A stretch of 64,000 nucleotides of DNA from Spinacia oleracea (lineage: Eukaryota > Streptophyta > Magnoliopsida > Caryophyllales > Amaranthaceae): positions 2,170,001 to 2,234,000 of the forward strand of contig NC_079491.1 in NCBI RefSeq assembly GCF_020520425.1, in the 5' to 3' direction. The notes under the pieces were generated by a model. The model saw only the letters and a list, made by a program, of their open reading frames with translations. It was not told the origin of the DNA and did no database searches. How positions within the stretch are numbered: position 1 is the first letter of the stretch; every line of letters starts with the position of its first letter. Made by a program: the position numbers and the translations under genes. Positions 15,901 through 53,032 of this stretch are shown piece by piece.

Positions 15901-18900
15901 AAGTTTGTGTTTTTCTTCCTAAATTTTCATTATCACTCAGTACCACCTCTAAACGTGGTAACGGAAATTTATGAAGAGAAACACGTACTTGGAGATACGG
16001 GGAGTTGAGTAACATGTATTGTAAATACAGAGTATAATTCTTATCTTTGTCTAACATGTGTTGTCTATAAGTTTGTCTAAGATGAAAATATTTGCTTCTT
16101 GGATGACATCATACATCTCTCTAATATTGGTTTCTATTCGGTGTAGGTCCAAGAAAATTTACAGTTGCCGACTCATATTAGATATTTGTTTTCCTCTCTT
16201 CAAGAGTCAGCATGCCATATCCAGACTCCAAATCTGCAGAATGTGTTGCAGATGGTATGAAAACTCCCTTCCCCCTTCCCCCTTTCTCCATTTATAGAAT
16301 TATTCCTTCTTTTACACATTTTGAACTTATCTTTCTTCTTTAATCTTTACAGTCAGGTATAACACCAGTGAGAAATTTCGGTCCAGATGTCGTTCAACTT
16401 GATCTTGATAAAATTACACATAAAGAGAACATTTCTTCACATTCTCTTGATATTCAATCTTCCACTAGACACCTTGTTGATTCTTTTGGGGGCGAGGCAA
16501 TGGAATTGATGTGGAAAAATGGACTAATCCAGTCAATGTCTGAAAATCAGCAATCTACTGATCTGTTGTTCAATGACGCGAATTGTGGAAGTAACATTTA
16601 TATGACCCAAAACGGAGTTGCATCCTCACAAAGTTGCCTTACAGAAAATAGCTCTTTATATGATGTTAAACTTTCTGCTGAAAAGTCCAGATTTCAAAAA
16701 CTGGTAGTTGAAAATAGTTTGGAGAAACAACCAGAATTCACATACTCTGCTGGAACTGAGCTGCATGAAGCTTTGGGACCCGCTTTTCTGAAACAGTGTT
16801 ACCCTTTTTCATGGGAATCTGAAAATCAAGAAGAAAGACTAGCTTCTCAAATGCCAGAACCTATGGAAAGCAGCTTACTTACTACAGATTCTGGGAAAGA
16901 TCATCTTTTAGAAGCCGTTGTAGCTAATATTTGCCAAAAGGATACCGGTTTTAAGAGTGCAAATGCAAAGTTACTTTCGACATCTGAATCTATGTTAACA
17001 ACTGAAAAAATGCCAGAGCAGTCTATTAATACTACAAGCCATACAATTGGTTCATCATCATATTACTCAATTGGTGGTTCATCACTTCTAGAGGGAAGTA
17101 CACAGAACAGCTGCTTGAACTCTTCAGAATCTTGTAGTATTAGGTCTTCAACTAGTTCATACAGAGATCCGGTAGCGAGGCCCGTTGACCCGGGTAAGGG
17201 TAACAAGAAGAGATCAAGACCTGGTGAAAGTTCTCGGCCTCGGCCTAGAGATAGGCAGCTTATTCAAGATCGGATTAAAGAGCTCCGAGAGCTCGTGCCT
17301 AATGGATCAAAGGTATGTCTCCCTCCAATTAGTAGAAGTTACACCAGGTTGCATGTAGCTTTACATGCAACCGGGTCGTTTTGTATTTTTAATCCTTCTA
17401 AAAGCACATTTTTATTGTTTCAAAGCACATATTTACCGATTAAAAGCACATTTTTACAAATAAATAACACAATATGTTTTAAAAGCACATATTGTTAAGT
17501 ACAACACAATCAGTAAAATGAAAAGAACTTTTCTGAAAAAATGTATGTGCCTTTGAACAGTAAAAATATGCTTTTCAAAAATGTGCTTAGAACTGCAAAA
17601 TTGGGTTTTCAAATTGAAAAAATGTGCTTTTAAACCGTAAAAATGTGTTTTTAACCGGGTTGTCTACATACAACCGGGTGAACCTTCTAATTAAAGTGGT
17701 TGTTAGCCTCGGCATAGAGATAGGCAGCAAAATCTGATGAGTGTGCAAAGTTAAACTTGTAAACATTTTTTGATTTGTTCCCTTATAATTGTGCAGTGTA
17801 GCATTGATTCACTGCTGGAGCGGACAATTAAGCATATGGTTTTCATGCAGAGTGTCACTAAGCATTCTGACAAGCTCAGTAATTGCGTTAAGTCTAAGGT
17901 AAAAACAATCTAACATAGCCCTCTTCAGTGTAAAATTTCCTCACATTTAATCATGTTGTTGCTTTGTGATATCTAAAGATGCTGTTTTTAATTACATGAT
18001 CAACCGAATTTCCTGTATTAGCAAATTTGTGGGTGTATTTGATACATGATCAACCGTATGTTCTAAAAACTTATGAATGTTACACCATGTATTTGAACGT
18101 GTAGGGTTGCAGTAATGAAACGGGAGTTCTAGGATCTGGTTATGAGCAGGGTTCAAGCTGGGCTGTGGAGGTTGGAGGACACATGAAAATATGCCCCGTT
18201 GTGGTGGAAAATCTCAACACGAATGGACAAATGCTAATAGAGGTATGTGTGTATATCATTGTTTAAAGAATTGTTAAAGAAAGACATTAAATGGGAGTGC
18301 CTAAATATTTTCTTTTTATTATCATAGATGTTATGTGAGGATTGCAATCATTTTCTGGAGATAGCAGAAGCTATTAGAAGCTTGGGCCTGACTATTCTGA
18401 AAGGCATGACCGACAATCACGGAGATAAAACGTGGATGCGTTTTGTAGTTGAGGTAAAAAATCTGAACATATTATTTACCATATCATTACAAGGTGCTTG
18501 TAGTTGGGATTTTTTTTTCAGGAACAAGGAGAAACAAGGCTCCGTTATTTTGTCTGAACTTATTTCATCTGAACTTACCTGAACTTATTTTATCTTAAAT
18601 AAACTTATTTGTGTGTGAAAATGTCGGAAAAAAACTTATTTTTGCTGAACTTATATTATCTGAACTTATTTTGTCTGAAATAAGTCTAAACAAATCGTAC
18701 ATAACGCAGCCTAACCTCTAAAGGTTTTTGTATAACTAAACACCGAGGCATCCCTTTGGAAAAACCAAGACAACACATGCCTAAAATTCAACATTTTACA
18801 TGATTTTCTAACAACACAACTTAAATGATTATAGGATCTGAGCAGGTTTCGTTGTACTATCTTTTATCCTGTTTACTGAATGTTCTCTTGTTCTATCATC

Positions 18901-20035: not shown

Positions 20036-23000
20036 TTAGATATTCGGTGACGCTTGTTCCCCTATACAAGGGTGGATTATCTTCTGATAGAAACTTCTCT
20101 ATCGGTCTGTATATTTCGTTTTTCTTCTCGGTGCTCGGGTAGAAGAAACACGCGGCTGATACCCTTGGACAGTTTTTCCTTAGACGTACTCTGTGCTCAA
20201 CGCTTTTGAACTTTGCATTTGTGATCAGCTGCATTTAGTCAAGAACATATGAAATTAGACTGTATTCCTGTTATGCTGGCTTATACAGGGAGAGAAGCTG
20301 ATATAAGCCAAAAAACTGAACTGGTGTATATACTAGACCTGCCAAGATCCGAAAATATCGGGTCATGTAACCCGATTTTATCCGAACCCGAACATCCCGA
20401 GAAGTATTGAGTCAAAAAAACCGACCGATTGAAAATCATTGTAGTTATAGTAATAAATGAGATTATTTAGGAACTTTAAACACAGTAAACACGTTGTTGT
20501 TACTATTGTCGGTTGGGCCGTGTAAATGTGTAATATGATTTTGATTTTGAATTATACGTCATTTTATGGTTGAATTTCAACTAAATATGAACTTTGTGTA
20601 TAAAAATTTGTTAAATTTTACGTATATTTTGTACGGAGTATAGATTTATTATCCAAGTTAATGAAAAATATAATACGCGTTTTAAAATCTCTCAACCCGT
20701 TGGGTCGACCCAAATGACCCGAAATCGACCCGATTTGACCCATTTATCATATTTTGTAGTAATATTATTTTTTTTTTACAATATTTCTGATATTTTTTGA
20801 CACAACTCAAAATCGACCCGAACTTGACCCATTACCCGAGTTGCCACCCCTACGGGCTACGGAAAGATATGAGTTTATCACAACTCAAAATGGGGAAGGG
20901 CTTACTGTCCATCAAGTCCTTTGGTCCAATAATAGGTTCAAGAACCCGAAAGTTCTGGTTCTTGAACAAACATTTATAACCCGTGAACGCGAAAGTGACC
21001 GGCCTGAATTAACTCGAACCCGAAAGTAAATTCTTTACAACCCAACCCGGCTCGGCACGGCCCGTTTGACAGGTATAGTACTACTATCATACCATCCTGG
21101 CCTGTTTGGCCACATCAGAAGTTAAGGGTACGTACCTGCATTAAATCGCCGAGATGGACCAACAGAGCTCCCGGCCTAGGTTGAATATCGATCCATTGAT
21201 CCCGGTGGAAGACTTCGAGGCCGCCGGTGTTATCTTGTAGGAGAATCGTCATGAAAGACGGATCGCAATGCTTCGTTGCACCTAAAGTTAGGTGTGGTTC
21301 TGGGCATGCAGGGTAGTAATGGCACACCAGGTTTGCAGTTCCCATGCATTCAATCTTGGTTAAGTACTCCTTTTCAAGTCCTAAAGCCATTGACATTGTT
21401 TCAGAGAGTTTATTCTTTAGTCTTAGTATGTTTTGAATGTACTCTGTTACTGCTTCCCTGCAAAAATGCACAAAGCAACATCAATTGTGGTTCTAAACAG
21501 TTAAATCTCTTGTACAGAGTTACTTGTTATAATGGTTACTCTGTAGTATAATCTGTAATTAGAACTAGTAACGTGACCAAGTAATCATGCATAGGGGTTG
21601 TGGCCTGGTCAGTCCGTAAAATAGTGGGCTTTCTGCATAATTTAGGCCCGCCTTTTGGGCCCGGTCTGATTAAAAAAAATTGAGTGGGTTTTGGGCAACT
21701 TAAAAGTACAGTTTTAGTTATAAATTTGGCCCGGAATAGCGGGTTTTGGTAGAGCTGATCATCACCGGCCAGCCCCGCTGGCCTGACCCGACCCCGCTCG
21801 AAAATTAAGGGGTTTTCAGCAGAATATTCCGGCCCGAACTTTTTAAAAAATTTGCGGGCTTTGGGCAACGTAAAACAACAATTTTAGTTATAAATTTGGC
21901 CCGACTCGAAAATGGCCCAAAAAGCCCGCTAATTTTGGCCTGAAATAGCGGGTTTTGGGCACAAAAAATTGGCCTAAAACTTGGCCCGGCTCGACATAAT
22001 GGGCATATTTTTTCTCGGCCCAGCCCGCCTTTTTTTTTTTTTATCAAGTCTAGGTTTTGGGCTGTGAAATTCGGCCCGAAGTTTGGCCCAGCCTGACCTA
22101 AGGGATAGAATTTTCAAGGTGTGGCCCGACCCATAGTTGACAAGGTCTAAGATTAAAACGTAATACTATCTCTGTTTCAAAATGACCTTCACACTTTCAA
22201 TTTTAGTTTGTTTCATAATGTTTTTTACACTTTGCTTTATTCTATTTTTGTACATGAAAACTTATTACTTACCCTACAATATTTACAATTTCCCACTCAC
22301 TTTTTCATACTTTATTCATTTTTTCTTACATTCGCCCACCTTTTTACACATTTCTCACTTTATCCACATTTCATTAGTACATTCAACCAACTTTTTCCAT
22401 TTTTATCTTAACATTTGTACAAATAGTAACCGTAAAGATCTTTACAAAACAAAGATAGTATGTAAGTGACATAGACTTTGATTTATATAAAGAGGGATGG
22501 AAGAAATAACCTGCAAACAAGAGGCAGTTCATCAGAATTCAAATCACCATCCTGATACTCAAAACTTACTGAATCCCTCCAATTAGCAGCCCTTGAAACC
22601 AACAGATCACCATTAGAGTAATACCTCACCTTATTATTAAACTCACGAGTATAGAACCTTCTTTTTTCAGTTACAGGCTGTTCATGGAACCTTCTAATCC
22701 CTTCCAACAACTCCTCCATAACTTCCAACTGTATTCCATGGTTAACTACCTGGAAAAACCCCCATGTTTCAGAAGCCTCGCGTACTTCCTCCACTATCGC
22801 GTCACTTTTAAAGTCTATTACCGGAAACTCAACCAAACGGGAAGAGTTTCCGTTTATGGAAAGGTTTTCAGGCGGGTGGATGAAGATTCGGGGTATTGTG
22901 GATATACCGGAGTCTGTAAGACCTTTGACTCCGGCTTTTGTTTGATCGAACAATTCGACTTCTTTGGCTCGATTGTAAGTGAGTTCGTGGTTGGGAATGG

Positions 23001-23124
23001 TGGATATACCGGAGTCTGTAAGGCCTTTAACTCCGGCCTTTGTTTGATCGAATTGTTCGACTTCTTTTGCTCGATCGTAATAAGTAAGGTTATCATGGTT
23101 GGGAATGGTTGAGTTTTTTGCCAT
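19977..23124 (-). CDS. 2-oxoglutarate/Fe(II) dioxygenase, ACC-oxidase-homolog type, with duplicated N-terminus
   Basis: Three minus-strand exons, 23124-22511, 21457-21136 and 20228-19977, give 395 residues with GT-AG introns. Fe(II) ligands are His268-x-Asp270 (in KHCDPSFM) and His324 (in VEHRV); Arg334-x-Ser336 (PRVSAAC) binds 2-oxoglutarate. The N-terminal DIOX_N part has [19 protein letters not shown]. Family members oxidise small soluble metabolites in the cytosol; the substrate cannot be read from the sequence. The oddity is at the start: residues 5-40 and 41-74 are two near-identical copies of the segment that occurs once in relatives ([12 protein letters not shown] in both), making the protein about 30 residues longer than its neighbour. 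Intron 1 holds GGGCC-type debris and a MITE. The start is the first ATG; an internal start is possible. Confidence 0.88.
21585..22140. mobile_element. Two abutting GGCCCG-rich elements in dioxygenase intron 1
   Basis: Near 21650-21760 and again near 21840-21990 the words TGGGCAAC, TTTTAGTTATAAATTTGGCC and TAGCGGGTTTTGG recur, so this is a repeated or doubled element. A relative in the opposite sense lies at 30828-31050 (GGCCAAATTTATAACTAAAA). Non-coding. Confidence 0.6.
22166..22458. mobile_element. Stowaway-like MITE in dioxygenase intron 1
   Basis: The ends CTATCTCTGTTTCAAAATGA and GATCTTTACAAAACAAAGATAG are imperfect inverted complements, flanked by TA. Same subfamily as 10768-11085. Confidence 0.7.
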
Positions 23125-23709
23125 GGAAGTGAAGTGAATTGTGTGAAGACAATGTACTATAAGGTGGAGTTGTTTGGTATGGTATATGTAGTGATGGTTG
23201 TGAAGTAAAAGACAAAGACTACCTCCTTAAGTTACCTTGGATTGTCAAATGTATATTGATGTTCATGAAAATACAAAGTTTTTGGACAAAAGACCAAAAA
23301 GAAGAGATGAGGTTACTAGTTTGGCATTTTCCTCTTTTGGAACCAATCATCAATTTAAAACTTTTAAGAAAAAAATAGCAAGTGTGTTCATTTTTCCAAG
23401 AAGTGGTTACCTAGGTTGCACAAATTCGGGCTACGGATACGGTCCATACAAATATGTACGGGGAAACGACAAAACGAGAACCAAAGGTTGATACCGTAGG
23501 GTGATAAGCATGTAAACACGTTTCGCTGTGTCGGAGTGTCGCGTGTCCGACACGTTTTGGAAACGGTTATAGTCATATTTTTGTCGTGTACGTGCACCAT
23601 AAGTGGTTACATTATATATATGGTACAACACAAGAACATACGTGAAACCAATTTCACTCCAACTTTTTGATGATACGATTACTAGCCAGTCGATCGAGCC
23701 CTTGGCCTT
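23125..23709. other. Upstream region of the first dioxygenase gene
   Basis: Non-coding. No clear TATA box or regulatory motif could be assigned. Short ORFs on both strands around 23240-23630 lack family features. Confidence 0.4.
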
Positions 23710-23712
23710 TTA

Positions 23713-24006
23713 GAGCATGAGCAATGGCAAGCAACAACATTTGTTGTTTTGCTTTGACACATCAACTCCTCAGACCAAAGTACAATATCTCACGATGGTA
23801 AACTACAACATTATTAGCTTTGGTCGATCCCACGTGTCAGTTTTTACTCTCTAATGAGGTTGCTTGGGATCACTTAGAACGTACAAGCTTTTCCCAAGCT
23901 ACAAGCTTGCATGTTTAGCATTGGTTGAGCTTGTAAGTTGTAACTCTAAGTATTTACGTAGTAGAAATTACAAACATGCCTTTATTGACAACCAATGCAG
24001 ATGCTC
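23713..24006. mobile_element. Tourist/Harbinger-like MITE
   Basis: The ends GAGCATGAGCAATGG and CCAATGCAGATGCTC are inverted complements, and TTA lies on both sides (23710-23712 and 24007-24009), the target duplication of PIF/Harbinger elements. Confidence 0.75.
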
Positions 24007-24009
24007 TTA

Positions 24010-24429
24010 CAGTATTTTTGTATTGTTGCAAGGTGATTTGTTACGTGTCTCGGGGTCATTTTTTCGGATATCAGATATGTGTGGCAACCCACATATCAGC
24101 TGAAAAAAAAATAGCTAAAGACAAAAAAAGATGTTCATTCTGCAAAAAAAAAGTACCATTTTTGTTTAAAAAAGTACCATTCAATTTATTTTTTGCCTTT
24201 TTTTTTCTTATTTTATCTTTTGCTATAATATGCATTTGCAAACACATATTAGATATCCGAAAATACTCTCACCTATAAATCGAAGAAACCGTTACCCAGA
24301 AACGTTGAATGGAGTCGGATGTAGTTGACAATAATCATGCAAAGCCGAAATATATATGGTAGTGGTTACTTTCTAGCCGAAATAAGCTACAAAGCCAAAA
24401 GAGGAAACAAATAGTACGGATTAGAAGAT
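24010..24429. other. No gene seen
   Basis: Low-complexity AT-rich spacer with A- and T-runs. GGATATCAGATATGTG near 24066 and CACATATTAGATATCCG near 24243 are inverted and may be the ends of a degenerate element. Confidence 0.45.
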
Positions 24430-24430
24430 A

Positions 24431-24756
24431 CTCCCTCCGTCCCGGAATACTCGACCCGGTTTGACCGGCACAAAGTTTAAGGGACTTGAATTGACTTATT
24501 TAAATTAATAGGTAGTAGTTGATAGTGGGATATTATTTTAATGTAGTTAGTGGGAGGTGGGTTAAGAGGTGGGGTTGTGGGAGAGTAGGGGTCGAATTTT
24601 TAATTATTTTTTGTATGAAGTAGGGGGTAGGTGGGTTAATAGGGGTGGAGAGAAATAATATAATATTGTTAGAATATTTCCATTTTTAGAAACAGGTCAA
24701 GTATTAAGGAACGACCCGATAAGGAAAACAGGTCAAGTATTCCGGGACGGAGGGAG
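24431..24756. mobile_element. Stowaway-like MITE
   Basis: The ends CTCCCTCCGTCCCGGAATAC and GTATTCCGGGACGGAGGGAG are perfect 20-bp inverted complements with TA flanks. The perfect ends suggest a fairly recent insertion. Confidence 0.9.
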
Positions 24757-25268
24757 TATATTACAAGTCTTTTCAACGTTTTGTGTATGGTTGCCCTAAT
24801 CTGCATGTGATCTGCATAGCTAAGATTTTGAAGGCCTCTCAAAGAGTTAAAATTTCATTTTTGTTCGAGTAATTGGACTCTTGTGAGGCAAGAACTCTTA
24901 TGTTAGGATAATGATCCCAAAACTTATCCCGAATTAGTATTTCAGATACCTTCATATTGTTAGGTTGGCAAAACGGGCATAATTTCACGTACAGGTATAA
25001 TATGTTAATATATTTGTAGGAACGGTATAAGTTCAAACCAAATGAACCTGAACCTAGACCCACTTATTAAAGGCGGTAGCGTTTCAACTTTTAAAAGTAT
25101 GGCAAGTCCGGCCTAGCATGAATGTGCCAAAAATGTATCTCTTTCTCAATAAAATGACATTAGTTGTGAAAAGTTAACTGTGTTTTATGATTCACCTAGT
25201 AATTACTCTGTATTAATTACGTTGTAGATATGGACGTGTTAGTTCTTTATTTTACTCGACGCCTTATT
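24757..25268. other. No gene seen
   Basis: AT-rich spacer with no supported feature. Confidence 0.5.
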
Positions 25269-25269
25269 G

Positions 25270-25572
25270 TAAACATGGATGTGGGCCAAGATTCGTGTTG
25301 AGCCCACGTGTTGGGCCTGAACATGTTAGGTGTTGTGCCAAAAACTTTAAAAATGCGACTCGAGCAAGGCACAATCCCACGAGTTGAGTTGTCGCGCCTA
25401 AGCCTAATTTGACTCAATTTAACGTGTTTCGTCGTGTCACATCATGCCTTGCTGTACTAGCTTTTTCCAAAAAAAAAAACCGATCAGACGCAGTCACAAT
25501 TCACGACTTCATGCTCGTGTCGGGTCGTGTCGTACTTTGGCCCATCCCGACCCAGCCCAGTGACATCTTTAC
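25270..25572. mobile_element. GGGCC-rich MITE, copy 2
   Basis: It starts TAAACATGGATGTGGGCC and ends CCCAGTGACATCTTTA, matching the family ends (TAAAGATGG..GTGGGCC / GGCCC..ACCATCTTTA). The core has CGTGTTTCGTCGTGTCAC and CTTTTTCCAAAAAAAA. Confidence 0.7.
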
Positions 25573-26324
25573 GTTACTGTGACAAATATGTATAGAGAAG
25601 TGTTTTGTGGACAGGAACTTTTGTGTAAGAACGCCTTACCGAAAAGACCGCTTTGATTGCTTAACTAATTGGTTCATTGCTTAACTAATTAGTTCAATTG
25701 TTTAACTAATTGGTATTATTGTTTAAGTAATTAGTTCCACTGCTTAACTTAGATGACACCAAATTGATCTTTTGTGTGAAATCTACCTTATATAAAAGTT
25801 TGTATTTTGCGGAAGTCAATGGCCCCTGTTCTTTTAATCATCAAGTAGTACGGAGAATAATGAAAGTAAAGCTAGATTAAACAACCTCCCTCCCCAACAA
25901 GGCAACAAAAGAAGCTTATCTTGCAACAATAATTTTCAGTGGAAAAAAAACAATTCCAATATCAAGAATATATGCAAAGTTAAACATATTTATTTATTTT
26001 ATCTTGTTGATTTTATAACCAAAAAAATCAAAATTATTTAAGTAAAATTCTAAATCTCTTTTTTAATCAATGAAATTCTGTATCCAAGTGTCATTTGACT
26101 ACATAAAGAGACCAAATCAGTGCAATATCATAAAGAGTATGGATCCTATCTTAATTTCTAGCTTTTCACCCTTTTCCTTGAAAGGAAGTTTTGTGAAATG
26201 GAGTTAATTTGTAGTAAGACAAGGATTCCTTTTGTAAGATATATAGAGTGACCTTAACATTAACCAAAGGGATACGTGCACGTGACCGTGCATGTGCGTG
26301 CGTTCACGTGCGTGAGCCTGTTCG
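25573..26324. other. No gene seen
   Basis: A short diverged tandem repeat near 25657-25750 (TGCTTAACTAATTGGTTCA-type words, four copies) is the only structure. A GTGCGTG-rich stretch follows near 26275-26330. Confidence 0.5.
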
Positions 26325-26339
26325 TGTGCTTGACTTATG

Positions 26340-26463
26340 TTTTTTTGTTGCGCGAATGAGCCATGTAGGGCAATACAAATTGTAAATAAGATAGTGATAT
26401 TCGAACCTGGAACTTATCGTACACATACCCTAGGTTTTAACCACTAGATCAAGACCTCATTGG
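26340..26463 (-). mobile_element. tRNA-derived SINE
   Basis: On the minus strand the element starts with a tRNA-like head (GGTCTTGATCTAGTGGTT), then a B-box-like GGTTCGAATATC, and ends in a short A-rich tail (AACAAAAAAA). It is flanked by 15-bp direct repeats that differ at two positions: TGTGCTTGACTTATG at 26325-26339 and TGTGCTTGGCATATG at 26464-26478. Confidence 0.75.
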
Positions 26464-26491
26464 TGTGCTTGGCATATGGGTGTGCTGTGTG

Positions 26492-26968
26492 CAAAGATGG
26501 TCGTGGCCGGGTCAGCCCGAGCTAACGGGCCATGGGCCTAAACGGGTCAGGTCCACGCTAAGTTCAATCTCCATCGTGTCTGGCCGAGCTGGGATGAAAA
26601 GTTCAAAATAGGGCCCATGCCCACAGGCTGTCGTGCCTAAGCTTAAATTTAACGTGCTTTGTCGAGCCGTGTTGTGTCTTGTCGTGTTTTTTCCATTAAA
26701 AAAAAAGCGGACCGGCCCAGGCCCACAACTTTGTGGTCGTGACGGGCCGGGCTGGGATGAAAAGTTCAAAATAGGGCCCTTGCCCACGGGTTGTCGCGCG
26801 TAACCCTAAATTTAGCGTGCTTTGTCGTGCCGGGTCGAGCAGTGTTGTGCTTTTTCCAAAAAAAAAAAAGCAGCCCACAACCCACAACTTCTACTTGGGC
26901 CAGGCCGTGTTTTTTTCATGCCAGGTCAGGCCGGGCTGGGCTTTTTCGTGCCGGGCTGGGCATCTTTA
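26492..26968. mobile_element. GGGCC-rich MITE, copy 3 (internally doubled)
   Basis: It starts CAAAGATGGTCGTGGCCGGG and ends GGGCTGGGCATCTTTA. The core phrase GGGATGAAAAGTTCAAAATA occurs twice (26590 and 26754), so part of the element is duplicated. Confidence 0.7.
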
Positions 26969-27250
26969 AGAATAGCACAGTTGCGAACTTGGTGTATGTG
27001 TGTGTGTGCAGCAGTTGCAACTTTTATACTGTTAAGTCTGTGATTACAAGTTCTGTGAATTACAATAACAGCACCAGATCTACATTTACAGAGCAGAAAA
27101 CAGTCCAACAATTGAAATAAACACTTGATTTTTAACTGAACTGAATATCAAATTATATGGGGGTTTCTGAATTAACACAAATACTCTCACAATGTGGGGA
27201 AAGAATTGAACTTTTCTAAGTTCAATGATTATTCCTGTTGGTACAATTCT

Positions 27251-30060
27251 TTAAAGCTTGATATGAGGAAGAACTTTAGTACTGCAACTTCCATGTAAAC
27301 TGAAAAGCTTGAGATATTCAATCTGTGATATTTCTTTGTAAACTGCAGGATTTTTATCAGAAAGAAGTTCCTGTATTGGTTCATATTTTCGATTGTTATT
27401 TCTGCTATTTGGATACAGAAAACATGCTGCTGATAACCTGGGTCCTTTTCGATTTGCCAGTACTCTATGTTCAGCACTTCTGAACATATCATTGCTTATC
27501 ACCTACACGAAAAAAAACCAAATGGGAAAGTTTAGTGTGTGCAAGTAAAGATGGTTGTGGGTCGGGCCGTCGTGCCTAAGCCTAGTTTTAATAAATTTAG
27601 CGTGCCGTGCCTTGTCGTGCTTTTTCCAAAAAAAAATGTGGCTCAAGGCCGTGCCTGTTTTTGAACTTTCGGCCCGGGCCGGAACGAAACATATTCAAAT
27701 GTGTGGGCCCGACTCGGAATGATACAGAGCCAAATGTATGGACCCGACCCGTTGGGCCCATGGCTCATAGGCTCGGCCCGAAACCCGTACGGGAACGATA
27801 CAGAGTCAAATGTGTGGGCTCGACACGAAATTATACCGAGCCAAATGTATGGGTCAGGCCCATTGGGCACATGGCTCACATGCCCGGCCCGAAGCCCGGC
27901 CTAGAATGATACATAGTCAAATGTGTGGGCCCGACCCGGCACGATACAGAATCAAATATATGACTCGTGGGCCCTGCCCGTGACCATCTTTATGTGCAAC
28001 AGCGCAATAGTAAAAGCTTTTTTTTTTTTTGTGTATGCCAAAATAAGGCTTTGGAAAACCTTTATCTGAACATATTTGAGCTTATTTTGGTTTTAAGGTG
28101 AAAAAAAAAACGATGTCTTACCTGCAGCATATCACCTATCATAACGATAAGCGAACCCTCCACCGGCGGCACGTGTACCCACTGATTCTGATGCAAGACT
28201 TGGAGTCCGTCTATGTCGCCTTGTAACAGAATGGCTAAAAAATAAGGATCAGTATGGTGCACCGTGCCCAGAGTCAAATGCGGCTCGGGGCAAGGTGGGT
28301 AGTAATGACCCACCAACTTCCGAGCTTCCATGCATTCCATTAGTTCAAGGTGGTCACTCTCTAACCCTAAAGCCTCAGAAAGCAACTTGCATAACTTCCC
28401 TTTCAATTCAACAATGTGTTTGACATAATCAGACATAGGCTTCCTGCAGAATTCAATACACAACAATACAAATGTTATATTAATAGAGCTGGTAAGCTTA
28501 CCCAACCCAACAAACCGACTCGAACCCAACTCAACAACCCAACCCAAACCAAACCAAACCCAATAATAAAGGGTTGGTCAAGTTTTTCAACCCATTTAAT
28601 TAAATGGGTCAACCCAACTCAACCCGTTTAATTAAATGGGTCAACCCAACTAAACAGTCTAAACCCAACCCGTTTAATTAAATGGGTTGGGTCGGGTTGA
28701 AATTTTGAACCAAAAAACAACCCGCTTAATTCATATAACTAATTCAGTCAGGTCAACCCTTAAAAAAAAAATTAATTTTGGGTCTTTTTAGCTTTTATAC
28801 AAATTGTAAATATGAAAAACTTAAACTAACGTCTACCAGCCACCAATACTTATTTTTCTCTCTATATATATACATATTGGAGTACTCCCTCTGTATTTTT
28901 TTAAGGGATACACTTGCCTTTTCCGGCCGTATTTATTTAAGAGATACACTTACCATTTTAGTAACTTATTAACCCTACCATCTAATTAAATAATACATCT
29001 AATATACCCCATCACCCACCATCCTATTAAACTAATATTTTCATAAACTCACCCCACCCTCCACCCACCAAAATGACATGGTCCCCACATATTTAATTAT
29101 TAAAATATCTATCCAACCCCACTTGCTTTATTATTTTAATTCATTCAATTATTCTTCTTAATACCCGTGCCCGGCCAAGTGTATCTCTTAAAAAAATACG
29201 GAGGGAGTATTAGTTTTTGTTTTTTTAATGAGATTTGCCTCGAAAAACTGATCCCTTTAGATATAAAATTCAAAGAAACTTGCACTTAAAACGGGAAAAA
29301 AAACTTATACGGGTCAACTTCGGGTCAACCCGGAGTATAACCATGTCGGGTTGGGTTGAGAATCTCAACCCGTTTAAGTGGTCATGTTAGGTTGGGAAAA
29401 TCTCATCAGTCTATAAATGGGTCAACCTTATTCCAACCCAACCCATTACCAGCTCTAGTACTTAATACACCCCAAAATGTATAGATTTTCAGTTGTTAAA
29501 CTAAAACAGAGAAGAAGAAGAGTTACTAACTGAAACCTGCAAATTTTAGGTAAGGCTTCAAAATCTGCTGTCAAGTTCTCAAACTCACAAGCAATTGTAT
29601 CTTTCCAAAATGCAGCTCTAAGAACCGGGTGAATAGTCGCATAATACCACACCTTCCTCGAAGAATCATGTGAATAATACTCCTCCTTCATCTCTTTCGC
29701 CTGCTCGTGAAAATCACAAACACTTTCCAACATGTTCATCATCACATCTGTTTGAACTCCATGGTTGATAACTTGAAACATACCCCATTTCCTCGAAGCT
29801 TCTAATACTTCATTAACAATAATCATACGCCTTTTACTTTCATAACCCTCGAGATTTATGATTGGAACTTGATTCTCGATACCATCATTATCAGAGTTCG
29901 CTTGCTTCAGATGATTCCTGTCAGAAGAAACAAACATTTTGGGGATTTTAAGGATACCAGAATCAACAAGTCCTTTTACACCTGATTTTGTTGACATAAG
30001 TTCACTCAAATCTTTCTCCCAATCATAATCATGATCATAAGTAGTACCATTACTCCCCAT
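27251..30060 (-). CDS. 2-oxoglutarate/Fe(II) dioxygenase, ACC-oxidase-homolog type
   Basis: Three minus-strand exons, 30060-29537, 28443-28122 and 27502-27251, give 365 residues, a normal length for the family. Fe(II) ligands are His238-x-Asp240 (HHTDPYF) and His294 (AEHRV); Arg304-x-Ser306 (PRLSAAC) binds 2-oxoglutarate. The N-terminal part has [11 protein letters not shown] and [16 protein letters not shown]. Exons 2 and 3 are the same lengths (322 and 252 nt) as in the gene at 19977-23124, on the same strand 4 kb away, so the two are tandem duplicates that have since diverged. No break is seen. The role is likely oxidation of a specialised metabolite; the substrate is unknown. Intron 1 carries a nested pair of MITEs. 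Confidence 0.9.
27546..27992. mobile_element. GGGCC-rich MITE, copy 4, in dioxygenase intron 2
   Basis: It starts TAAAGATGGTTGTGGGTCGG and ends CCTGCCCGTGACCATCTTTA, a clear inverted pair. Inside, CCAAATGTATGG-type words with GGGCCCGACCC recur about every 60-70 bp, giving a short internal tandem. Confidence 0.75.
28484..29457. mobile_element. AACCC-rich MITE in dioxygenase intron 1, split by another MITE
   Basis: The ends TAGAGCTGGTAA and TTACCAGCTCTA are perfect inverted complements. The arms are full of AACCCAACCC and AAATGGGTCAACCC words. A Stowaway-like element at 28885-29207 interrupts it. Confidence 0.8.
28885..29207. mobile_element. Stowaway-like MITE (nested), copy 1 of a matched pair
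   Basis: It starts CTCCCTCTGTATTTTTTTAA and ends TTAAAAAAATACGGAGGGAG, with TA flanks. The interior matches 52423-52747 almost base for base (CACCCACCATCCTATTAAAC, TTTCATAAA), so both derive from a recent burst. Confidence 0.9.
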
Positions 30061-30827
30061 CTTATAAATCAGTATGTGGATTCAAAAAATGTCAGAAAAT
30101 GTTACAGAATGATTTTATACTCATCAGATGTAAAGCATATTGTCTTTAATCAACCCATAATATTAGTGAAAAGTTGATGAAATGTTAAATATATGTTTAA
30201 AAAGAAGAAAGCAAAATGTTTCTGCAACTTTTTAAAGATTCACAAATTTCTGCAGCAGATACTGTGTTTGTCTGTAGTAAGGGACTGATTGTAGGAGAAT
30301 GCTTAGTTTAATTTGCACCCCCATAACGGATATATTTTTCTAACAAAGCATACACTGTCAACATGTTTTTATATATTCCTGATTTTTACACCAAAAACAA
30401 AAACAAGAAAGTGATTTTTTTCGGATAAAACTTGGCTTTTAGGACTCACGAATGAATACAGTCATATACAGAGATGAACGTATGACATGATGTCGTAGTG
30501 ATCTAGGCTCTGTTTTCTGAAAGTTCTTTACGCCTTGAAATATGAAATATGTGTCCAAAGTATTAAAACTTTTGACCGTAAATTCTCACTATTCTGTACA
30601 TCAAAACGTTATCACGTAAGATCTATTTAGATTGATTTCGGTATGTAATTTTAGAATATCAACTTTAACATACGAAATTAGATATATTAGTGGTTAGATA
30701 TTGCATTGGAATCTGTGCAAATAGTAAGTGTAAAGAATTCTAAGGAACAATCTAAAATTTGTAAACACATGTATTATGTTTACAAATTTGGTTAGGTTTA
30801 TCACCGTTTTCACATCCAACCTAGACC
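30061..30827. other. Upstream region of the second dioxygenase gene
   Basis: AT-rich, non-coding. No motif could be assigned with confidence. Confidence 0.4.
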
Positions 30828-32966: not shown

Positions 32967-33436
32967 GTTCGGTTTTCGTTTGTTTAAGTGGTTCATTTTG
33001 TTCATCATTTCATACGATTTTAACAAATCTGTTCAATCCAGAATTTGCAGTTTCATGGACCTTGCAAAATCTGCAAATTTTTGCACAAAATACAGGTGAA
33101 ATGACAGCCATCCAAAATTCCAAACAAAGCATTCAGCAAGTTAAACAAAACCAATCAAAACTGTTGTTTTCGAAATGATTTTAAACCCAAAAAAGCGCAA
33201 GAATTTGCAAATATTCGTCATTACTTCAGAAATTTTCCAGCTAATTAAAAAGAGCTAGAAAAACATTGCAACGACAAATTACATAAAAATCAATTTTGCA
33301 CAAATATTGAGCTCAAACAGAGATTTAATTTACCCGGTCAAGCCTTCGATATGTGCTTCTCTAAAAGCATTTTGTAAATCCCCAAATTATTAAATAAATT
33401 CATCAAAATCAAATCCCAGAAAAATACGAAAAAATG

Positions 33437-33524
33437 GAGAATGATCAGACAGTACGAATACATTTAACACCATCATTCTGGTGAATCAAACCAATAGGAA
33501 ACAATTGTTCATCACTTCATTCTC
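33437..33524 (-). ncRNA. Box C/D snoRNA candidate B2
   Basis: Read on the minus strand, the segment is closed by an 8-bp stem (GAGAATGA / TCATTCTC). Box C is GTGATGA (33515-33509), C' is ATGATGG, and box D is CTGA (33448-33445). Next to box D lies GTATTCGTACTG, complementary to 12 nt of 25S rRNA (CAGUACGAAUAC, just before the ACCGUGAAAGCG segment, from memory). Before D' lies a CCTATTGG stretch complementary to 25S CCAAUAGGGAAC with one G.U or mismatch. By the D+5 rule the target is the U of CAGU. It would guide 2'-O-methylation in the nucleolus. Confidence 0.75.
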
Positions 33525-33815
33525 TATTATTTTCCACCAATTTTATAATTTATTCAGATTCTACAAAATTGGGAAATATTTTTTAAATAGTGTAGTCGCC
33601 ATTAAAAAGGAATTCTCAAGCAATGAAATAAATAAATAAATGAACAAGAAAATCCCTAAAAATGGCGACCTTAAAACAATCTAGCATAACAAATGAGCTT
33701 AACAAGGTACTGATATGATTTAACCTATAAAGCACTCGAGTATGCATTAATCTAGCAACAAAATAAATTAAAATCAAGAATAGTTTTAGGGGGAAAATAA
33801 AAATTAACTTGGAAG

Positions 33816-33912
33816 GAGAGAAATTAGGATCAGATAGAGCTAATACAAATAATCGCCATCATACTGACGGATCATCCCAATAGGGAAAATTTGCTCGTCA
33901 TTTCGAACTCTC
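33816..33912 (-). ncRNA. Box C/D snoRNA candidate A2
   Basis: Minus strand. Box D CTGA is at 33833-33830, and upstream of it GTATTAGCTCTA is complementary to 12 nt of 18S rRNA (UAGAGCUAAUAC). A second guide, TTCCCTATTGG, complements 25S CCAAUAGGGAA (33877-33887 in sense). Box C is ATGACGA, one change from the consensus, and the closing stem is weak (GAGAG / CTCTC, with several unpaired bases inside). It may be a decayed or poorly expressed copy of A1. Confidence 0.6.
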
Positions 33913-34080
33913 AATCGCAAAAATGATCGAAGAAACTTTTGAAGAAGACAAGAAAATAATTAAATTGAAAAAACTGGAGGAAGATGAAAACGATTTGTAA
34001 TTGAAACTTGGAAATTTGTTAATTTTATAGAGGAATCTTGATATTGCGGCGTCGCGTGTTCGGAGAACAGCAAGGTTGTG

Positions 34081-34186
34081 AAACCCTAATTTCCGATAAA
34101 CCCTAATTCTGGAGAATATGGGTTTTGTGGGTTTGAATTTAAAAGGGTACAACCGTACAACCCTTGGATCAAGCTATTGATGGGCC
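34081..34186 (-). promoter_or_regulatory. Promoter of snoRNA locus 2 (site II plus telo-boxes)
   Basis: Read towards the minus strand: site II (TGGGCC at 34181-34186 on the plus strand), a TTTAAA-like TATA near 34138-34143, then two telo-boxes (AAACCCTAA at 34098-34106 and 34081-34089). Site II with telo-box is the known signature of plant ribosomal-protein and snoRNA gene promoters. It lies about 170-270 bp upstream of snoRNA A2, in the right direction. Confidence 0.6.
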
Positions 34187-34666
34187 AAGCTTGAGACATC
34201 TGATATTGAAAATGTGAAATTTTGTAAATTTTGAAGGCAATGAAGTACATATTTTAATGTCTTTTTCTTTATGATTTCTGCTTATTATACGGTCATTTAA
34301 TTACTTATCTAACGCCCACGATTGCTTGTTATTGACAAAATAACGTCTAACTCTTTAATAATCGCACAAAATTGACAACTTAAGTATTGATTTACTTTAG
34401 GTTGATAACATTTTAGTTAGCGATTTATGAGTTAACAAATCGACAAATGAGTTGACGATTTAATATAGAAACATCTCATTTTCACGTCAATTGACGATTT
34501 TACCAGGAAACTGCAGATAAATAAAGAATCTCACCAATTCAAGTTCGAGTGTTCGTTGGCAAACCAAGAAAAGCAATTACAAACTTGGGCTTACTCAAAT
34601 GGTAGATTGAGAAATTTACACACAAAAATAAAGGTGTATTTACGAATTTTGACATCCAAAATTGTA

Positions 34667-35313
34667 CTCCCTCCATTCCTAAATGATCTTCATATTTGGA
34701 GTTTGGGGTGGAAAATAAGAAAATGGAATCTTGTAATGATTGGGTGTAAAAGAAAGTAATAAATAAATGAAGGAAAGTAATAAAGAAATGAAGGAGATAA
34801 AAGATTTTCACAAATTCTTATTTACAATAGGTTTACAATAAATATTGTACACCGGAGTAAAAGTTAACTCAAAATGCTTAAAAGTTCAGCTTTTATATGT
34901 AAAAGTTATCTTTTCTTAAGTGATAAATTTTTTCATTTTAGTAAACTTATTTCTTCAAAATCACTAATAATGTATAAAATTAATCATTTAAAATATTTAT
35001 CTATCATTTTTTTACCTAATATAAAAGTTAATCAAAACTATAATAAAGTTACAAAAAAAGGGTTAAAGTTATCTTGGTGTACAATAAATTTATCGTACAC
35101 CTTGTGCGCGCAAGACCTTTTGAAATATATTTTGTTTAAAGTAATAAAAAATCATAAAAGTGGGGTTGGTGGGTGAATGGGGAAATGTGAATGAATTAAA
35201 TAAGGGATGATGGGGAAATTTATGGTAAAAAGTCATGTCCGAAAATAGAAATAGAAAGATCATTTAGGAACGACATTTATAGAAACAGGAAGATCAAAAA
35301 GGAATGGAGGGAG
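34667..35313. mobile_element. Stowaway-like MITE interrupted by another element
   Basis: The ends CTCCCTCCATTCCTAAATGA and AAGGAATGGAGGGAG, flanked by TA, are inverted complements. Further in, AAATGATCTTC pairs with GAAAGATCATTT. A separate hairpin-ended element fills 34809-35125. Confidence 0.8.
34809..35125. mobile_element. Hairpin-ended element, copy 1
   Basis: It starts CACAAATTCTTATTTACA and ends GGTGTACAATAAATTTATCG, then TACACCTTGTGCGCGCAAG and ACCTTTTG. Both ends carry near-palindromes of the GGTGTACAAT..ATTGTACACC kind, and the far end adds a second small hairpin (CTTGTGCGCGCAAG). Copy 2 lies reversed at 51567-51895; a worn relative lies near 37793-37990. Confidence 0.7.
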
Positions 35314-35405
35314 TATTCTTTTTAAATTAAAAAGTACTCCGTATAGTGTGAAGTCAAATACAAGCTTGTGATGTCAACTACAAGAGATGTTTACAACTCC
35401 CCCCT

Positions 35406-35728
35406 ATAGATGGTTGTGGGCCGAGCTGGCCCGAAGCCCCGACCGGCACGAAAAAAGTTCGGCCAGTCACGGGCACGAAGTCATGGGCCATAGGCCGGGC
35501 CTGTGCCTTATTTTTTTGGAAAAAGCACGACAGGGCACGGCACGACAAAGCACGTTACACGATGGGCCAGCCCGGCACGAAAGCCCGTGGGCCGTGGGCT
35601 TGGGGGCCTGGGCCCTTTTAAACTTTTCGGCCGGCACAACACGGCACGAAACAACGTGGGCCTGTCGTGGGCCGACCCGGTTATGCTCGACCCAAAGCCC
35701 GGGCCAGGCCGGGCCACGACCATCTTTA
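35406..35728. mobile_element. GGGCC-rich MITE, copy 5
   Basis: It starts TAGATGGTTGTGGGCCGAGC and ends GGCCGGGCCACGACCATCTT. The core has TTTTTTTGGAAAAAGCACGA and CACGGCACGACAAAGCACGT. A C-tract of 14 follows at once. The overlapping ORFs on both strands are by-products. Confidence 0.75.
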
Positions 35729-35802
35729 CCCCCCCCCCCCCCCGCCCTCTCCCTCGTATCTCTCTCACCCCCTAACATCTATTAGTGAATCTTATAGAGA
35801 CG

Positions 35803-36153
35803 TAAAGATGGTTGTGGGTCGGGTCAGCCCGAAGCCCGACCCAGCACAAAAAAACCTGGCCCGGTACAAGCACAAAAATAGCACGGCCCAGCACGGGCAC
35901 AAAGTCGTGGGTCGAGCCTGTGCCTTATTTTTTGGAAAAAGCACGACACGACTCGACCCGCCACAACAAACCACGCTAAATTTAGTAAAATTAGCCTTAG
36001 GCACAAAAAACTGGGGGCTTGGGCCGGGCCTGAACCCTATTTTTAACATTTCGGCCCCGTCCGGTCCGTCACGAAACAACATGGGCCTGCTATGGGCCAA
36101 GCCGGTTAGGCCCACGGCTCGACCCGGCCCAGCCTGACCCGCGACCATATTTA
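35803..36153. mobile_element. GGGCC-rich MITE, copy 6
   Basis: It starts TAAAGATGGTTGTGGGTCGG and ends CCTGACCCGCGACCATATTTA, an inverted pair. It lies 75 bp from copy 5 in the same orientation, so the two may have arisen together or targeted the same site type. Confidence 0.75.
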
Positions 36154-36900
36154 CTAAAGGACGTCCATTATTTTGTACCGGTGAAAAAACGCATCTTTTT
36201 CTTTTTTGCCTTTTCTTGTGTAATAATACTTGGTAGACATTTGCTTCGAATATTAAACGCAATCAGATTAAAATCATTCTCGCAACTATAACAAATCGTC
36301 AAGATTACCGTGCTAGATCTACCAAACAGTCAATTTTTTTAGAATTATGTTATGATTTTCGAATGGAAGAACAAATTCACTCTTAACTAAAAGTTAATTT
36401 AAACTAATCAAGATTTGAGTCAGCCATTTATGAGTTAACAATACACACTAGATCATTATGCCAAAGTTTGCTTATACCTAATTATTCTGTAAATGCTTGC
36501 TTACACTCCATGTATTTATTCTGTAAATGTCCAAGTATTCAATTCGCTTCAACAATGTCACACAGTAAATACTGTATAATTAACCCAAATCACTGTATCC
36601 TGATTATCAATTTTTTTAGAGTCCAGTAATCTATATCAATGAATAAATTACGTCATATTTATGGTATGCATTTATCGACCAAATTGCAACAAAATTATTG
36701 ATTGACGAGACATCTCACATCTCCCGCACAGGCAATGGTTTCAACAGGGATAATTTAGTCTTTTTAACTGCCTAGCATTCAATCCTTTGCCAAAAATGGT
36801 AGCCATTAAAATTAATTAAGTAACCTTGATTATTCATTCATTCAAGGTCAAGATTGTTCAATCATGAAAAATAAATTAATTATAATGAGTTTGTTTAACG
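36154..36900. other. No gene seen
   Basis: AT-rich. TTATTCTGTAAATG occurs twice (36484, 36527). A purine-rich tail follows towards the snoRNA locus. Possibly the 3' end of the minus-strand snoRNA transcript. Confidence 0.4.
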
Positions 36901-36928
36901 AAAACCTTTTTTTTATTCTGAAAATAGA

Positions 36929-37023
36929 GAACGATCAGAGTACGAATACGTGAATTCGCCATCATTCCGGCGATCAAACCTTGAAATTTCAAGGATTTAA
37001 TGAAAATGTTCATCAAATCGTTC
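36929..37023 (-). ncRNA. Box C/D snoRNA candidate B1
   Basis: Minus strand, closed by a perfect 7-bp stem (GAACGAT / ATCGTTC). Box C is TTGATGA (37016-37010; first base off consensus), C' ATGATGG, and box D CTGA (36938-36935). CGTATTCGTACT directly abuts box D and complements 12 nt of 25S rRNA (AGUACGAAUACG). The D+5 rule puts the target on a C two bases beyond the U predicted for B2. The D' guide seen in the other three copies is replaced here by a palindrome-like stretch (CCTTGAAATTTCAAGG), so this copy seems to keep one guide only. Confidence 0.72.
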
Positions 37024-37081
37024 GATTTTATAGAAGAAAAGAAAATTAATTAAAGAAAAAGCTGATGAAAATGGGGGAGAT

Positions 37082-37179
37082 GAGTAATAGGATCAGATAG
37101 AGCTAATACATTGTTGCCATCATATCGGCGAATCAAACCAATAGGGAACAAAATAGTTCAATCATCATTTCAATTACTC
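37082..37179 (-). ncRNA. Box C/D snoRNA candidate A1 (double guide)
   Basis: Minus strand, closed by a perfect 7-bp stem (GAGTAAT / ATTACTC). Box C ATGATGA (37168-37162), D' TTGA (37136-37133), C' ATGATGG (37123-37117), box D CTGA (37096-37093). The box D guide GTATTAGCTCTA complements 18S UAGAGCUAAUAC; D+5 gives the A of UAGA, which may be the plant Am162 site guided by U45-type snoRNAs (name and number from memory). The D' guide GTTCCCTATTGGT complements 13 nt of 25S (ACCAAUAGGGAAC). This is the best formed of the four. Confidence 0.82.
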
Positions 37180-37354
37180 TCCGTAAATTCTAACTTTATA
37201 AAAATAAATGAATCAAAACTTCGTAGATCTGAAAAACAAAGCGAAAAAGAAAAAAATTAAGTTTTGAAATAGAAGGGAGATACGATAATGGCGACAGAGG
37301 ATGAAGGGTGGTAGTGACGCTACTGTGGAGGTGGAGATGAGGTTGAAGATGATG

Positions 37355-37453
37355 AAACCCTAATATTTTGATCGGGAATTTATAGGATATGATGAAGTTG
37401 ATGCCTGGGTTTTGAGACCCTAAATCCCTAATTAGGGCATATGGAAGTGGGCC
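37355..37453 (-). promoter_or_regulatory. Promoter of snoRNA locus 1 (site II, TATA, telo-box)
   Basis: Towards the minus strand: site II (TGGGCC at 37448-37453 on the plus strand), a TATA box CTATAAATT (37385-37377), and a telo-box (AAACCCTAA at 37355-37363, read as AGGGTTT near the likely start). The distance to snoRNA A1 is about 180 bp. The order matches locus 2. Confidence 0.65.
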
Positions 37454-37553
37454 GGGTGTGACTATTAGCGCATTAATATATCTATTAAGGTCCATATAGC
37501 CAAAATCTTAGGCCCAATAACATTTTTAACTTGAAGACCATTTACCAAGCTCT

Positions 37554-37720
37554 ACCAATTGCTTGTTGGTTCAGTGGTGATTGAGACTGAACTTGGTAGG
37601 GAGAATCCGTGTTTGATCTCTCGCAGCAACAATTGGGAGGGGACTGGAACCTAACCACCCAGAACTCGCCTCGAATTCGGATTAGCCCTGAGGGTGAACA
37701 GGTGCTAACACCAAAAAAAC
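37554..37720 (+). mobile_element. Au-like SINE, copy 1
   Basis: The tRNA-type A box TGGTTCAGTGG is near the start, a B-box-like GTTTGATCTCTCGC follows, and the element ends CTAACACCAAAAAAAC. A perfect 16-bp target duplication, CCATTTACCAAGCTCT, lies on both sides (37538-37553, 37721-37736). The body strongly resembles the copy at 38969-39145. Confidence 0.9.
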
Positions 37721-52747: not shown

Positions 52748-53032
52748 TACTAGTATTCTATACGGAGTATGTCACAATATTTTATATGTATTGAAAATAC
52801 TATCCCCGACCCGAACACAATCAAACTTTTGTTGACCCAATGGATAGGTATCCGGGTCGTCCCCTTTCCCCCTACGTTCTTCAATTCTGTGTTTCCTCCC
52901 TCCAAAAACTTCAAACTCTCATACTTTCATCACACTGAACCAAAAACTGCGCACAAATCAAACGTCAATGGTTCCTGCACTCGGAATTCACTTCTTCAAC
53001 TCTAACACACTCTCCCTTTCACTGTCTCTCTC

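Follow-up and report, generated by a model that had tools for sequence, protein, structure and literature searches.

In Arabidopsis, the box C/D small nucleolar RNA (snoRNA) SnoR18 is assigned to two sites, A162 in 18S ribosomal RNA (rRNA) and A2935 in 25S rRNA (Table 1 of PMC8053127), and snoR18 is one of seven C/D families that PMC5122169 lists as conserved across land plants. At the 18S site of Nc CD32, a table in PMC2780460 places A. thaliana snoR18 together with human U44 (SNORD44); this grouping is by 18S site, not by sequence. The equivalents of another 25S nucleotide, U2730, are methylated in human (Um4306), yeast (Um2729) and tobacco (Um2732), according to Table 2 of PMC11542601. In yeast, this methylation is made by snR51 (PMC5199042), and the table in PMC2780460 lists snR51 and U41 for the site with a dash for Arabidopsis. 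We found no named plant guide for U2730 in the literature searched, which held few subscription papers and no supplements and is not proof of absence. Here we describe four box C/D snoRNA genes in a 64,000-nucleotide stretch of the Spinacia oleracea genome (contig NC_079491.1, positions 2,170,001 to 2,234,000; hereafter the window). They lie on the minus strand between 33.4 and 37.2 kb and form two pairs, A1-B1 (pair 1) and A2-B2 (pair 2). Judged from the sequence, these are probably two independently transcribed two-snoRNA genes, in which A1 and A2 are SnoR18-like, B2 guides U2730 and B1 has diverged. The RF00359/SnoR18 family is already known, and the window genes add members to it.

The whole window was scanned with Rfam at gathering thresholds. 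Only three matches were obtained, all to RF00359 (snoZ102_R77, clan CL00060; gathering score, 40 bits) and all at these loci. A1 (37082..37179) matched at 37175-37086 with 76.3 bits (E = 3.1e-11), B2 (33437..33524) at 33522-33439 with 72.1 bits (E = 2.9e-10) and A2 (33824..33908) at 33908-33824 with 64.5 bits (E = 1.6e-8); these E-values refer to the whole window, and the three RNAs match the whole model. B1 (36929..37023) scored 37.7 bits at 37023-36929, 2.3 bits short of the cut-off, with an E-value of 0.0017 in a permissive scan of the 4.4-kb stretch 33200-37600. B1 is a diverged relative of the RF00359 family and is not counted as a member. In the same permissive scan, B2 also gave matches below the cut-offs to snoZ122 (28.4 bits), sn2841 (27.9 bits), SNORD41 (27.2 bits, against a cut-off of 41) and ZL2 (25.3 bits). 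A first-pass annotation of the window had proposed a box C/D guide family in two loci, each ordered A then B on the minus strand. This proposal holds: the order is seen in both pairs, three of the four RNAs reach the Rfam cut-off, and rRNA complementarity is present. The "R77" in the Rfam name should not be equated with SnoR77Y, because the site assigned to SnoR77Y is 18S U582 (Table 1 of PMC8053127).

The C, D′, C′ and D boxes that the annotation had described were found in all four RNAs. The D box is CTGA in every RNA. The C box (RUGAUGA) is exact in A1 and B2 and one base off in A2 (ATGACGA) and B1 (TTGATGA). In A1, box C is at 37168-37162, D′ (TTGA) at 37136-37133, C′ at 37123-37117 and D at 37096-37093. 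In B1, the C-like box is at 37016-37010, D′ at 36977-36974, C′ at 36965-36959 and D at 36938-36935. In A2, the C-like box is at 33901-33895, D′ (ATGA) at 33875-33872, C′ at 33862-33856 and D at 33833-33830, and in B2, box C is at 33515-33509, D′ at 33489-33486, C′ at 33476-33470 and D at 33448-33445. Perfect terminal stems of 7-8 bp had been claimed for three of the RNAs, and we observed 7 bp in A1 (37179-37173/37088-37082), 7 bp in B1 (37023-37017/36935-36929) and 8 bp in B2 (33524-33517/33444-33437). The stem adjoins boxes C and D in B1 and B2; that of B1 overlaps box D by one base.

Targets were set by the box-plus-five (N+5) rule, and Watson-Crick (WC) and GU pairs were counted through the N+5 base. 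The rRNA pieces used were a 600-nt 18S fragment from the same assembly (L020), on which the 18S position was counted, and a 321-nt Arabidopsis-like 25S stretch, used in place of the species' own 25S, to which all 25S pairings below refer. The 25S numbering was taken from the distance to U2922 (192 nt) and is consistent with the numbers published for yeast and tobacco. Beside box D, the annotation had reported 12 nt of 18S complement in two RNAs and 12 nt of 25S complement in the other two. The D guide of A1 (37111-37098) forms 13 WC pairs and one GU pair with 18S rRNA and that of A2 (33847-33835) forms 12 and one; the predicted target of both is A162. The D guide of B2 (33462-33450) forms 12 WC pairs and one GU pair with 25S rRNA, with U2730 as its target. 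The D guide of B1 (36950-36939) pairs with the same 25S stretch by 12 WC pairs. This guide is shifted by two bases toward box D, which places C2732 instead of U2730 at N+5. A second 25S complement, annotated before D′ in three RNAs, was found in A1 (37150-37137; 13 WC pairs and one GU pair), A2 (33887-33877; 11 and none) and B2 (33503-33490; 12 and two), and is directed to A2935. In B1, a palindrome, CCTTGAAATTTCAAGG (36994-36979), occupies the place of the D′ guide. Guides of at least 10 nt are thus present at D in all four RNAs and at D′ in three. Both sites assigned to Arabidopsis SnoR18 are the predicted targets of A1 and A2, a likeness by targets and not by SnoR18 sequence. In contrast, the D guides of B1 and B2 go to 25S instead of 18S A162: their best pairing with the 18S piece has only 8 pairs, and neither carries the A162 guide. 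In alignments, the D guide of the RF00359 consensus also differs from those of B2 and B1.

From the boxes, stems, complementarity, family match and upstream motifs, we infer the following course of events. Each pair would be transcribed, probably by RNA polymerase II, as one precursor from its own telo-box/site II promoter. After cutting and trimming of this precursor, the mature RNAs, each about 85-95 nt long, would enter fibrillarin particles. A1 and A2 would direct 2′-O-methylation of 18S A162 with the D guide and of 25S A2935 with the D′ guide. B2 would be a paralogue with a different D guide, directing methylation of 25S U2730, the human U41/yeast snR51 site, while retaining the A2935 guide. 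B1, a diverged B copy, would direct C2732 or be failing.

Several observations weigh against this scheme. The 7-bp stem of A1 is set off four nt from both box C and box D, and A2 has no terminal stem and an imperfect C box. A1, A2 and B2 fold no better than shuffled sequences (z = -0.06, -1.16 and -0.81, respectively). Box C/D RNAs commonly fold no better than shuffles. B1 folds better than most of them (z = -2.2; 5 of 200 shuffles were as good). In B1, whose spacing also differs, we found no guide to the 18S and 25S pieces at the D′ position, at most 7 pairs being formed, and a D′ rRNA target for B1 was dropped. No intact 25S rRNA was found in the assembly: the 321-nt query gave three diverged matches, the best at 79% identity, and an exact 25S pattern gave no match. 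A diverged 25S relic from the same genome (L022) carries CAGTACGAATAC but reads CTAATAGGGAGT at the other site, where the Rfam large-subunit rRNA consensus is CaCuAAUAGGGAAC. With this consensus, one G-C pair of the D′ guide would become G-U. On the side of published mapping, Table 2 of PMC11542601 does not give U2730 as methylated in Arabidopsis or tomato. Of Arabidopsis, tomato and tobacco, only Arabidopsis has Am2935 mapped in that table, so that some plants may not use the D′ target. As far as the assembly was searched, its rRNA sequences (L020, L021, L022 and L023) are fragments or diverged relics, and in L020 a total of 5646 N separate and surround the rRNA pieces.

In an alternative reading, the B members are decaying copies whose 25S complement is a useless remnant, and the working genes are the A members or just one of these. 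The missing D′ guide of B1, its C-like box TTGATGA and its Rfam score below the cut-off are in line with this idea, as are the absence of U2730 from the Arabidopsis and tomato maps in the table cited above and the damaged copies of RF00359/SnoR18-type genes found elsewhere in the assembly. We nevertheless consider it unlikely. In B2, the boxes are intact, both guides are present, the terminal stem has 8 bp and the Rfam score is 72.1 bits, and its D guide lands on a nucleotide that is methylated in tobacco, human and yeast according to the same table. Landing on a known methylated nucleotide is not the expected outcome of decay.

If B2 is functional, as we favor, its D guide shares its target nucleotide with human U41 (SNORD41) and yeast snR51. 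Because the body of B2 is snoR18-like, it would act like U41, and orthology to U41 is not implied. The rRNA methylation for which B2 is a candidate plant guide differs among plants, being mapped in tobacco and not in Arabidopsis or tomato. We tentatively propose, as a possibility somewhat short of an even chance, that the B RNAs are a plant guide lineage for the U41/snR51 site and arose from a snoR18 copy by a swap of the D guide. Relatives of B2 may then lie behind tobacco Um2732, and B1 may have moved to C2732 by the two-base change of spacing, its D′ guide having been replaced by a kept hairpin (CCUUGA/UCAAGG, versus CCUUAA/UUAAGG in the degenerate pair L015 described below). Paralogues that differ mainly in one guide offer a clean case for the gain of rRNA modification sites.

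The regions upstream of the first RNA of each pair were scanned for promoter motifs. Upstream of pair 1, promoter-like motifs lie at 37355..37453 on the minus strand: a site II element GGCCCA (37453-37448), a telo core TTAGGGT (from 37423), TATAAA (from 37384) and a telo box TTAGGGTTT (37363-37355). An additional TATAAA starts at 37200. Upstream of pair 2, the motifs lie at 34024..34186 on the minus strand and comprise a site II element GGCCCA (34186-34181), two telo boxes (34106-34098 and 34089-34081) and TATAAA (from 34029). The window holds 5 telo 9-mers and 47 GGCCCA/TGGGCC words in total, and the two types occur within 150 bases of each other only upstream of the two pairs. Thus, both pairs have a telo box and a site II element upstream of their first RNA, as in non-intronic plant snoRNA genes. 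Of 40 non-intronic snoRNA loci of Arabidopsis described in PMC3022908, 37 have telo boxes, accompanied by site II or TEF1 boxes at 34. The same paper states that many snoRNA genes of plants are grouped in polycistronic clusters, whose snoRNAs may be homologous or heterologous. Because both pairs have their own upstream motifs and plant clusters of this kind are reported, the likely unit is an RNA polymerase II precursor that contains two snoRNAs. For one plant, the snoR18-type genes are here located along with their promoter-type regions.

Alternatively, the four RNAs could be intronic in an unannotated host gene and be released by splicing, given that intronic snoRNA genes are frequent in rice according to PMC3022908. 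We regard this as very improbable. The telo boxes and site II words stand 173-278 bases upstream of each A, and the minus strand has no stop-to-stop frame of at least 160 amino acids between 33 and 38 kb (8 such frames occur in the whole window). The sole frame of this size in that interval (35622-36137) is on the plus strand, opposite to the snoRNAs, in GC-rich repeats, and is probably a by-product of composition; exons shorter than this size would escape such a search. A tRNA-snoRNA transcription unit was also considered and was ruled out, because no tRNA was found in the window.

The specificity of the complements was gauged with every CTGA word in the window, 401 in total over both strands. 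Only the four D boxes reach at least 12 WC pairs with the rRNA pieces; the next-best site, at 53971 on the minus strand, has 11. Because the 18S and 25S pieces were chosen to contain the targets, this control gauges specificity within the window and not against all rRNA. In the 894-Mb assembly, the word formed by the A guide and box D, TGTATTAGCTCTATCTGATC, occurs at two places with at most one mismatch, both in the window, and the corresponding B2 word occurs at one place. It is practically excluded that the box words and short rRNA complements of the four RNAs are there by chance: although single boxes and stems are short and the CTGA control used pieces containing the targets, the Rfam E-values down to 3.1e-11 contradict it, and so do the ranks of the four D boxes as the top four of the 401 words.

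The annotation had further claimed that duplication within a locus was followed by duplication of the whole locus. The A-B order and the matches between A1 and A2 (82.5% over 63 bases) and between B1 and B2 (79.4% over 63 bases) fit this claim. However, A1 also matches B2 (73.7% over 114 bases), and the flanks barely match: apart from a single short match (80% over 51 bases, E = 1.6e-5) between a region downstream of A1 and one upstream of A2, the loci share only chance-level words outside the RNAs. The claimed order is therefore plausible but not proven, and sequences of only about 90 nt do not settle it. The history would fit an old A-B unit that was copied in tandem, B being a copy of A with another D guide. 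A third A-B pair, degenerate but arranged in this same order (L015 1495-1760, at C2:100.2 Mb; 41.4 bits), which is without the 18S guide, lies on another chromosome and suggests that the A-B pair is an old unit. The B1-type palindrome reads CCTTGAAATTTCAAGG in the window and CCTTAAAATTTAAGG in L015. Both sides of the stem are changed, as read from the sequences and checked by reverse complementation. The B1 hairpin may have been kept by paired change; with one event in a degenerate copy, this is a lead only.

The assembly was also searched with RF00359. Since 56 of 440,044 first-look candidates were scored, the counts are lower bounds. At least nine matches were obtained, at least seven of them over the cut-off; four are the window genes (three over the cut-off). 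The matches found outside the window are damaged copies, and three of them lie in Helitron-like elements. These three, on C3, C4 and C6, score 67.1, 67.1 and 70.8 bits, and their elements are 92-98% alike over about 2.9 kb. The elements are L026 on C3, L025 1639-5889 on C4 and L027 on C6. Those on C3 and C4 have about 4.25 kb in common and end in A|TCTCTATTATATAAG and GCACGCATCGCGTGC-ATATAAGA-CTAG|T, a pattern that we take to be the Helitron form. The C6 element shares this 3′ end and differs in its 5′ part. This 3′ terminus has 799 exact occurrences in the assembly, and its reversed control has none. A Pfam search with three frames of one element gave no match over the curated cut-off. All three elements carry the sequence corresponding to 37312-36809 of the window, the A1-B1 transcript region, at 80-89% identity and without the promoter motifs. 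In their A part, the 5′ side of the terminal stem is missing and the 18S guide is altered, by two inserted bases in two copies and by two substitutions in one. The idea that the window genes are themselves copies within a mobile element was rejected, since the Helitron-like copies lack the promoter and part of the terminal stem and have a changed 18S guide. Because these copies are incomplete, they derive from a locus like that in the window and not the reverse. In a literature search, based largely on listings, we found no description of a Helitron that had taken up a pair of snoRNAs. Two further loci, L034 and L035, match B1 over just 49 bases, from its 3′ half (88-90% identity), with unrelated sequence before or after, and a match at C6:74586862 (35.5 bits) is below the cut-off and contains no guide words.

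Between the two pairs, the window contains a high-copy repeat of about 330 bases (34798-35125), within which 44 of the 46 matches listed fall. Inverted ends resembling CTCCCTCCATTCC, which are presumably Stowaway-like, flank it near 35.31 and 34.67 kb. The stretch 35420-36150, also between the pairs, is GC-rich and imperfectly repeated. Farther away, the neighbors are a piece of an LHW-type bHLH gene at 16344-17498 on the plus strand, pieces of 2OG-Fe(II) oxygenase genes at 22483-30081 on the minus strand, and a frame for a PPR protein of 835 amino acids at 53006-55513 on the plus strand.

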